Shown here: piece after piece, positions 31,838 to 33,853 of the stretch
Position numbering within the stretch: the stretch's first letter is position 1
Layout: the number at the start of each line of letters is the position of its first letter
NCBI RefSeq assembly: GCF_017347585.1
Contig: NZ_AP024480.1
Span: 2,333,501 to 2,397,500, forward strand
DNA: 64,000 bases
Source: Caldicellulosiruptor diazotrophicus
GTDB lineage: Bacteria; Bacillota; Thermoanaerobacteria; Caldicellulosiruptorales; Caldicellulosiruptoraceae
Direction of reading: 5' to 3'
The notes under the pieces: generated by a model
The model's input: only the letters and a program-made list of their open reading frames with translations
What the model was told of the DNA's origin: nothing
Databases searched by the model: none
Program-made: the position numbers and the translations under genes

Positions 31838-33271
31838 TTAAAAATATAAATCTCTTACACCTTTTTTTATCATCTCAAGTTTCTTTTCAGTTTCTTTACG
31901 CATTTTTTCATCCTTTATTTGATTCAAGCTCTCATATATAATCTTTCGCCCAATCTCTTTTGTTTTCTCAGAGCCATAGTCTTCCAAATACTCCATAAAA
32001 GTTAAAAGCGCATTTGGTGTACAAAAGTCTTGAATGTCACCTGTCTTTGCATATTGCATAAACAAATCCCCAGTTCTTCCTCTCCTGTAGCATGCTGTGC
32101 AGTAGCTTGGAATATAACCTGCCTCGCAAAGAGTTCTTATGACCTCATCAGGACTTCTCTTATCTTCAACCTCAAACTGTGCAAGATCTTTATCTAAATC
32201 ACCCGTGGATTTTCCTTCATATTCAAGTGTGTAGCCACCAACACCTGTGCATGACCCAGCGCTTATTTGCGATATCCCAAGGTCAATTACCTCTTCTCTA
32301 AAACCTGGTCTTTCACGGGTAGATAAAATCATGCCAGTGTAGGGCACGGCAAGTCGAATTATTGCAACAATCTTTTTAAACTCATCATCAGAAACAAGGT
32401 AAGGATACCTTTCTTTTGTCACCTCAACACCTTCGGCAGGTCTAATCCTTGGCACAGAGATTGTATGTGGTCCTACTCCAAACCTTTCTTCAAGATGCTT
32501 TGCATGTAAAATCAATCCTACAACTTCAAACTTGTAATCGTAAAGCCCAAACAAAACTCCTAAACCAACATCGTCGATTCCTGCCTGCATAGCTCTGTCC
32601 ATTGCCATCGCATGCCAATCGTAATCTGATTTGGGACCTTCAGGATGCATGTATTCATATGTTGGCCTGTGGTATGTTTCCTGGAAAAGTACATAAGTGC
32701 CTATTTTTGCTTCTTTTAGTATTCTGTACTCTTCTATTGTTGTTGCTGCAATGTTGACATTCACTCTTCTTATATTACCTTTTTCTTTGTAAACAGAGTA
32801 TATGGTATTTATGGCATCTACGACATATTCAATTGGCGCTTCTTTTGGGTCTTCGCCAAGTTCAAGAGCAATTCTTTTGTGCCCAAGAGATTCAATTATC
32901 TCAACCTCTTTACGTATCTCATCCATGGTAAGCTTTCTTCTTTTCATCTTTGTGTTTGACCTGTGATATCCGCAGTAGCGACAGTTGTTTATGCAAAAGT
33001 TACTGATGTAAAGCGGAGCAAAAAGAACAATTCTCTTGCCATAAATTCTTTCCTTTACCTGTCTTGCCGCATTAAAAAGCTTTTCTAAAACACTTTTATC
33101 TTCTATATTAAGAAGGGTTGCAACCTCATGAGGTTCAAGCCCATTCAGATTCAATGCTTTTTGAATTATATTCTCTGCCTTATCAAGGTTTTTCTTCCCC
33201 TTTTCAAGAATTTCAAAAACCATTTGGTCATTTATGAATTCACATCTTTCCCACTGGTCCTTTTTAAACAT
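31838..33271 (-). CDS. hydG: [FeFe]-hydrogenase H-cluster maturase HydG
   Basis: 477-residue radical SAM tyrosine lyase that makes the CO and cyanide ligands of the H-cluster. The SAM iron-sulfur cluster motif CX3CX2C is C93, C97, C100 (NFCINNCRYCGYHR). The C-terminal auxiliary cluster motif CX2CX22C is C391, C394, C417 (YCTACYRRGRTGD), which separates HydG from ThiH. It follows the small regulator gene by 21 bases. HydE and HydF are not in this window. It implies hydrogen-evolving fermentation. Confidence 0.93.
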   Translation of the reverse strand: MFKKDQWERCEFINDQMVFEILEKGKKNLDKAENIIQKALNLNGLEPHEVATLLNIEDKSVLEKLFNAARQVKERIYGKRIVLFAPLYISNFCINNCRYCGYHRSNTKMKRRKLTMDEIRKEVEIIESLGHKRIALELGEDPKEAPIEYVVDAINTIYSVYKEKGNIRRVNVNIAATTIEEYRILKEAKIGTYVLFQETYHRPTYEYMHPEGPKSDYDWHAMAMDRAMQAGIDDVGLGVLFGLYDYKFEVVGLILHAKHLEERFGVGPHTISVPRIRPAEGVEVTKERYPYLVSDDEFKKIVAIIRLAVPYTGMILSTRERPGFREEVIDLGISQISAGSCTGVGGYTLEYEGKSTGDLDKDLAQFEVEDKRSPDEVIRTLCEAGYIPSYCTACYRRGRTGDLFMQYAKTGDIQDFCTPNALLTFMEYLEDYGSEKTKEIGRKIIYESLNQIKDEKMRKETEKKLEMIKKGVRDLYF

Positions 33272-33292: not shown

Positions 33293-33538
33293 TTATTTTG
33301 TAAGAGCACTCTTTACCTTTACACCAAGCAAACTCCCAAGCTTTCCTGTGAGTGCACCAATCTCATCAGTTGTTCCATCAACTATAAGAGAAATAACACA
33401 AAGCCCTCTTTCTTTATATGGTATACCCATCCTCCCAACAATAATATCACCATGATCGCTTAAGATTTTGTTGAGCTTATCTGACACCTCTTTTCTGTTT
33501 TCAACCACAATTCCAATAACGCCAATTCGCCTTTCCAT
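33293..33538 (-). CDS. TM1266-type iron-only hydrogenase system regulator
   Basis: 81-residue ACT-like small protein from the ATG at 33538 (MERRIGVIGIVVENRKEVS), with the VGRMGIPY and VISLIVDGTTDEIGALTGKLG segments typical of the putative iron-only hydrogenase system regulator (TM1266) family. Family members usually sit beside hydrogenase maturation genes, as here before hydG. The longer upstream frame would cross the leader structure and is unlikely. Its ligand is unknown. Confidence 0.82.
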   Translation of the reverse strand: MERRIGVIGIVVENRKEVSDKLNKILSDHGDIIVGRMGIPYKERGLCVISLIVDGTTDEIGALTGKLGSLLGVKVKSALTK

Positions 33539-33555
33539 TATTACCACCGTTCCTC

Positions 33556-33684
33556 TCCAAAAAATAAATCCACCTCTCCTGACTTTCCACAAAGTTTTAT
33601 CCAAAAGAGGTGGATGCAAGTTCTATTTTAGCTTTTCCCAATCCACTCCCCTCCTTATCAGGCTACTTTGCCCTCTAAGTCAGG
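33556..33684 (-). promoter_or_regulatory. Structured leader with terminator/antiterminator choice upstream of hydG operon
   Basis: The minus transcript can form a 10-bp terminator stem (AUCCACCUCU, 33615-33606, with AGAGGUGGAU, 33577-33568) followed by a UUUAUUUUUU tract. It can instead form nested pairings: CCUGACUU (33684-33677) with AAGUCAGG (33585-33578), CAAAGU (33670-33665) with ACUUUG (33595-33590), and GAGUGGAU (about 33648-33641) with AUCCACCUC. The inner alternative pairing uses the same bases as the terminator. This is riboswitch or attenuator architecture; I cannot match it to a known class. Confidence 0.6.
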
Positions 33685-33706
33685 ATTAAATATTCTGTTT
33701 GTTAAT

Positions 33707-33712
33707 ATTGTA
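33707..33712 (-). promoter_or_regulatory. Likely -10 element for the hydG operon
   Basis: TACAAT (minus strand, 33712-33707) would start transcription about 15-20 bases before the leader's first pairing arm. The -35 region is poor (TTTTAA at 17 bases), so the promoter may need an activator. Confidence 0.4.
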
Positions 33713-33853
33713 ACATACTTTTTTCTAAATTAAAACACTATTTTAACCTTCCTAGATACTAAATTATCTTTTTGATTTCAAACAACCAGTATATGATGAT
33801 ATAATTATAGTAAATTAAAAACAATAAAATAGTAGCAAAGGAGTTGGAACAAA

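Follow-up and report, generated by a model that had tools for sequence, protein, structure and literature searches.

A conserved dyad-like hairpin in leader RNAs of [FeFe]-hydrogenase maturation genes, with TM1266 as candidate effector

The window, a 64,000-nucleotide stretch of the Caldicellulosiruptor diazotrophicus genome (contig NZ_AP024480.1, positions 2,333,501 to 2,397,500), carries on its minus strand an operon in which a TM1266-family gene of 81 amino acids (33293-33538; TIGR03959, E 1.5e-34; PF21699 and NikR_C; related solved structure 2nzc) precedes hydG, which encodes an [FeFe]-hydrogenase maturase (31838-33271; TIGR03955, E 6e-196). CO, cyanide and an unusual iron cofactor are all produced during H-cluster assembly; how cells adjust this process appears to have been little studied, and TM1266 has long been annotated only as a putative regulator of the hydrogenase system. 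The operon is preceded by a leader RNA of ~160 nt (33539-33700, minus strand), the start of which was placed from an extended -10 promoter element, TGTTACAAT (TGTTATAAT in relatives; 33707-33715, minus strand), that was read from the sequence and is kept in the same-genus leaders. None of 200 shuffled versions folds as well as the whole leader (z -2.9). The leader is present in all 11 other genomes of the genus, and its hairpin core also occurs upstream of a TM1266-hydE operon in another family.

A candidate Rex-like operator, TTGTTAATATTGTAACAT (33699-33716, strand not assigned), with two mismatches to TTGTTAANNNNTTAACAA, overlaps the -10 region. In a window so rich in AT, sequence alone does not make such a site significant (22 matches versus 20.8 expected at three mismatches); the corresponding promoter region is conserved in 12/12 same-genus genomes. 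For the homologous C. bescii operon, Athe_0168-hydG, annotated as a CopG-family regulator plus HydG and with a Rex site 181 bp from the ATG, the cited passages report that Rex binds upstream in vitro and that operon expression is not raised by deletion of rex (log2 -0.21 to -0.27; PMC6391272). The binding means that the operon is also controlled at the promoter, and the lack of derepression leaves room for the leader, being a result that a second control layer of this kind would fit. Rex acts on the same operon of a TM1266-type regulator and hydG, from a site at its promoter, but what those passages describe is repression at the DNA level, and a leader RNA layer is unmentioned in them (PMC6391272).

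The deeply conserved element of the leader is a 38-nt 5' hairpin that the preliminary description had not singled out. In the window it reads UCCUGA-CUUA-GAGGG-loop-CCUGA-UAAG-GAGGGG (33648-33685, minus strand; covariance-model match 33645-33688), with a computed folding energy of -17.1 kcal/mol alone, and its general form is UCCUGA-N4-RAGGG-loop-CCUGA-N4'-RAGGG. Inside its outer UCCU/GGG(R) helix lies a 2x2 internal loop, GA/RA, followed by a 4-bp helix whose sequence is free and which is shortened to 3 bp in some families; another 2x2 loop, RA/GA, then leads to an inner GGG/CCU helix with an extending pair. The whole is a nearly two-fold symmetric helix with two identical RAGGG/CCUGA modules. 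Since the two halves are near copies of each other, the hairpin has approximate two-fold symmetry, with two half-sites on either side of a spacer that is fixed in length and free in sequence.

The fold is borne out by covariation. When 30 cores were aligned by sequence only (MAFFT), 93.3% of the paired cells could pair versus 78.5% in shuffles, both sides had changed in 53 cells versus 20.2, and the covariation score was 0.394 versus 0.122, a value that was reached by none of 500 shuffles and that drops sharply once the partners are slid by one. Double changes are seen in all four middle pairs of this alignment, and in 7 of 11 pairs among 80 sequences, the alignment of which was fitted to the model structure. 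Two other architectures were considered. Tandem kissing hairpins, each of the form UCCU-GANNNNR-AGGG and together another way to read the direct repeat, are disfavored by the nested inner helix, which extends with covarying first and last loop letters (CG, UG, GC, AU, UA), and by relatives in which GGG/CCU has become GGA/UCU and CCU/GGG has become UCU/GGA; a K-turn does not match, the internal loops being symmetric 2x2 loops that lack an asymmetric 3-nt bulge next to tandem G-A pairs. One genome has two full copies of the motif 10 nt apart (L152, 1501-1540 and 1550-1589), and in another record a hairpin of the inner module lies ahead of the full motif (L037, 1802-1880).

The distribution of the motif follows a single pathway. 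A scan of GTDB species genomes with the pattern TCCT-N6-RAGGG-N4..9-CCTGA-N4-RAGGG returned 60 stretches, 22 of which lie upstream of H-cluster maturation genes, a count that includes two Desulforamulus/Desulfotomaculum records with an uncharacterized protein and the same leader layout. The linked matches come from Caldicoprobacter, Fuchsiella, Dethiobacter, Desulforamulus, Marinitoga and other Thermotogota, Omnitrophota, Negativicutes and Syntrophales. The other 38, mostly inside coding regions or repeats, were set aside as chance matches, as were L190, L195, L196 and L264-L266 in coding regions or tandem repeats, and served as a control: in the segments that the pattern leaves free, on average 3.27 of the four middle pairs form in the 22 linked matches versus 1.47 in the 38 unlinked ones (p 2.5e-7).

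When 398 genomes of the phylum were searched with a covariance model of the 30 cores, 54 of them gave a total of 58 matches (E <= 0.02), and 52 of these are upstream of hydG, hydE, hydF, TM1266 or aspA; the other six comprise two sites ahead of an ECF transporter S-component (PF12822), one ahead of the Desulforamulus-type protein and three that are apparently chance. A model of 80 cores picked up 35 of the 37 genomes in the window's class, 10 of them only at E 0.01-0.1 and several with the motif directly before hydG. In other phyla it gave matches in 53 of 81 genomes for Thermotogota, 11 of 97 for Omnitrophota and 6 of 148 for Desulfobacterota, three of the last being real. All 30 Thermotogota loci that were checked are linked to hyd genes, one of them by inspection. 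The same fold is therefore found upstream of genes of the same pathway in at least four phyla, Bacillota, Thermotogota, Omnitrophota and Desulfobacterota, and what the leaders of this one pathway share is a covarying, aptamer-like RNA of the kind that characterizes riboswitches.

Some neighbors of the motif are less familiar. The S-component (PF12822) lies directly 3' of the motif in two genomes (L158 and L162, each 1501-1539), and in Caldicoprobacter (L084, L095) an S-component-like membrane protein follows TM1266; these may represent a transporter of some substrate connected with hydrogenase. A protein of ~182 amino acids without a Pfam match follows the motif and a terminator in Desulforamulus and a relative (L082, L114, L149).

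Downstream of the hairpin, the leader ends in an intrinsic terminator (33568-33615, minus strand; -22.1 kcal/mol), which is kept in the genus and is followed by the T-tract TTTATTTTTT (33559-33568, minus strand). The terminator had been proposed in the preliminary description and proved real, exactly where it was placed there, with its 5' arm at 33615-33601 and its 3' arm at 33577-33568, and the co-transcriptional folds likewise reproduce the three nested pairings that were said to compete with it. Just before the 3' arm is complete, these pairings are UCCUGACUU/AAGUCAGGA, GGCAAAG/CUUUGU and GGAGGGGAGUGGAU/AUCCACCUCUUUU, in which GGAGGGGAGUGGAU (33641-33654, minus strand) is the 5' strand of the antiterminator, and AAGUCAGGA (33577-33585, minus strand) is the ON-fold partner of the hairpin 5' strand UCCUGACUU (33685-33677). 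One detail of that description has to be corrected, in that AAGUCAGG does not pair with the terminator 3' arm; it abuts this arm and pairs with the 5' end of the leader. The long-range P1 pairing is seen in the window's genus only, and AAGUCAGGA as a partner is likewise seen only there.

In the computed folding path, the 5' hairpin forms first as the RNA grows. When the 3' arm of the terminator is nearly finished, the nested antiterminator fold is favored, at -35.0 kcal/mol versus -30.8 kcal/mol with the 5' hairpin kept, a gap that amounts to 7.5 kcal/mol at 70 C, and in the full-length leader the hairpin and the terminator together are preferred (-41.9 kcal/mol). According to these folds, the expression platform is mutually exclusive with the conserved fold, and such a profile would let an effector of the hairpin tip the switch towards termination. 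The earlier reading of the leader as an attenuator with mutually exclusive folds is thereby supported. Neither outcome named beforehand as its refutation arose, since the leader matches no Rfam 15 family and the core is conserved and covaries across phyla; a switch architecture is very probable.

In most leaders, a terminator lies 10-40 nt 3' of the hairpin. Relative to shuffled arms, the terminator 5' arm has excess complementarity to the motif (mean z -1.15, p 3e-5), which is striking in Thermotogota and weak in some leaders. This statement rests on the comparison with shuffled arms, because a rank test of own versus other leaders' arms was marginal (p 0.05).

The 3' strand of the hairpin doubles as a Shine-Dalgarno-like sequence, AAGGAGGGG (33648-33656, minus strand). 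In the window it supplies a near-perfect Shine-Dalgarno to a putative leader ORF of 14 codons (33597-33641, minus strand), which starts with TTG, ends with STSFG-stop and runs over the terminator 5' arm. A short ORF of this kind is open in 12/12 same-genus leaders, with a TTG or ATG start and an end at STSF-[G/D/V]-stop (TAA or TGA) within the terminator 5' arm, although the end of the peptide is partly fixed by the terminator sequence. Of 56 lineages with terminator-bearing leaders, 29 have an ATG at +4 to +16 from the motif versus 13.0 +/- 3.1 in shuffles, and the peak at 5-14 nt corresponds to the spacing of a Shine-Dalgarno to its start codon; about half of the lineages have no leader ORF. 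Where the terminator is missing, the hairpin 3' strand often lies on the Shine-Dalgarno of the gene itself (L119, L158, L217). A reading that unites these cases is that the hairpin, when held, would hide the Shine-Dalgarno and/or the antiterminator strand, so that effector binding would mean OFF.

Known RNA classes do not account for the leader. That it does not fit TPP, SAM, THF, cobalamin, Mn, preQ1 or T-box patterns had been judged by eye, and a cmscan search against Rfam 15 agrees, with nothing above the gathering score either for the window or for 20 relative loci, and no credible weak match. Among open-licence papers, none was found that describes this RNA or a role of TM1266 in RNA biology, and two surveys from the Breaker laboratory leave these genes unmentioned. 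The leader belongs to a real regulatory RNA class for [FeFe]-hydrogenase cofactor assembly that has apparently not been described so far.

The protein TM1266 stands out as a possible reader of the hairpin. It is above the family cut-off in 50 of 50 motif-positive versus 62 of 80 motif-negative HydG genomes (p 1e-4, kinship ignored), a comparison in which TM1266 is in many motif-positive cases simply the next gene after the motif, and in ~20 of the 50 genomes the motif lies elsewhere. Conversely, when a sensitive covariance model was run with filters off, the motif was found before hydG in 0 of 14 genomes in which TM1266 is lacking or only weakly matched, versus 17 of 29 TM1266-bearing genomes that had previously been called motif-negative (p 1.5e-4, kinship ignored). 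TM1266 is thus always present where the RNA is, as expected of the cognate protein of a protein-read attenuator. It is a small basic ACT/NikR-C-like protein with seven strongly conserved basic residues, and a domain search found PF21699/NikR_C only and no DNA-binding domain. One of its residues, R15, is present in 71 of 77 TM1266 proteins of the set versus 2 of 7 from motif-negative genomes (kinship ignored). These residues, the domain content and the R15 pattern fit an RNA-binding protein. Judged from sequence, TM1266 is the leading candidate for the effector of the hairpin, a role for which we see about an even chance. A second TM1266 subfamily (L308, L309, L312, L317, L324), with DAPxxxIS in place of DGTTDEIG and without R15, occurs in HydG genomes without a detectable motif.

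The principal alternative is a true riboswitch, in which the hairpin would directly bind a small molecule or metal of H-cluster assembly (e.g., iron, a product of HydG or HydE, tyrosine or a by-product) in the OFF state, and TM1266 would merely be co-regulated. A regulon of one biosynthetic pathway plus an ECF transporter S-component is typical for riboswitches, the two identical modules and the tandem copy in one genome recall multi-site riboswitches, and the invariant UGA/RAG modules could make ligand pockets. In its two near-identical small modules, short leader, pathway-specific genes and OFF/ON control via terminator or Shine-Dalgarno, the element resembles Guanidine-II (mini-ykkC) and other compact or tandem-module riboswitches, and in its position upstream of metal or metal-cofactor genes it resembles NiCo (czcD), Moco and other Rfam metal or cofactor leaders. 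However, it forms one nested hairpin rather than the two of Guanidine-II, it has neither a junction nor a pseudoknot, and no Rfam 15 model matches it; moreover, all that is conserved in it is a pair of symmetric GA-type modules on either side of a spacer of free sequence, which is more like a site for a symmetric protein, and direct ligand binding leaves the strict co-occurrence with TM1266 unexplained. We regard the riboswitch as a strong rival, though somewhat less likely than TM1266 as effector. Control by a metabolite, metal or redox cofactor, as suggested in the preliminary description, may apply, but the dyad-like hairpin and the strict co-occurrence make a leader read by a protein at least as likely as a direct riboswitch.

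Attenuation through a leader peptide, as in trp-type leaders, would have the ribosome stall on, or complete, the short ORF in response to a charged tRNA or a metabolite, the hairpin only aiding initiation. The putative ORFs, with their good Shine-Dalgarno spacing over the terminator 5' arm, are what this mechanism would use, but they share no conserved run of one codon and are missing or just 2-6 codons long in many lineages, in leaders that lack a terminator the motif falls directly on the Shine-Dalgarno of the gene itself, and a T-box is not matched in Rfam, all of which makes this mechanism very unlikely. A passive element that needs no dedicated effector, be it an RNA thermometer or a hairpin for mRNA stability, is likewise very unlikely: many carriers are thermophiles and the folding energies are temperature sensitive, yet the lineages carrying the motif are not all thermophiles in lifestyle, and a thermometer needs neither invariant GA modules nor strict pathway specificity.

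We therefore favor, with confidence that is evenly balanced, a leader that acts as a feedback attenuator of the H-cluster assembly genes, with TM1266 as the most likely effector. An effector would stabilize the hairpin with its two RAGGG/CCUGA half-sites across the free-sequence spacer of 3-4 bp, and the folded hairpin would hide its own 3' strand, which is the antiterminator strand and, in many lineages, the Shine-Dalgarno of the leader ORF or of the gene. The effector-bound hairpin would lead to termination or blocked translation (OFF), whereas the free hairpin would refold to the antiterminator or be opened by a ribosome (ON), translation of the short leader ORF covering the terminator 5' arm. 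TM1266, for which the first gene of the operon often codes, would bind the RNA as a homo-oligomer and would probably have a ligand of its own, taken up by the ACT/NikR-C-like fold. More tentatively, a TM1266 dimer may read the dyad-symmetric hairpin of two RAGGG/CCUGA half-sites and gate a Shine-Dalgarno, a leader ORF and a terminator, and may represent an RNA-binding regulator of a new kind. The proposed scheme shares with TRAP, PyrR and HutP a leader whose choice between terminator and antiterminator falls to a small homo-oligomeric protein that responds to a ligand and belongs to the pathway itself, but differs in its dyad-like hairpin with GA modules and in the ACT/NikR-C-like fold of TM1266, the binding of which is a prediction of the present work.

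With a conserved RNA switch on almost all of the maturation pathway, the regulation of H-cluster assembly becomes directly testable. The switch gives TM1266 a concrete hypothesis and provides a handle on producers of biohydrogen and ethanol; if the proposed role of TM1266 is true, at least four bacterial phyla would subject H-cluster assembly to feedback control.
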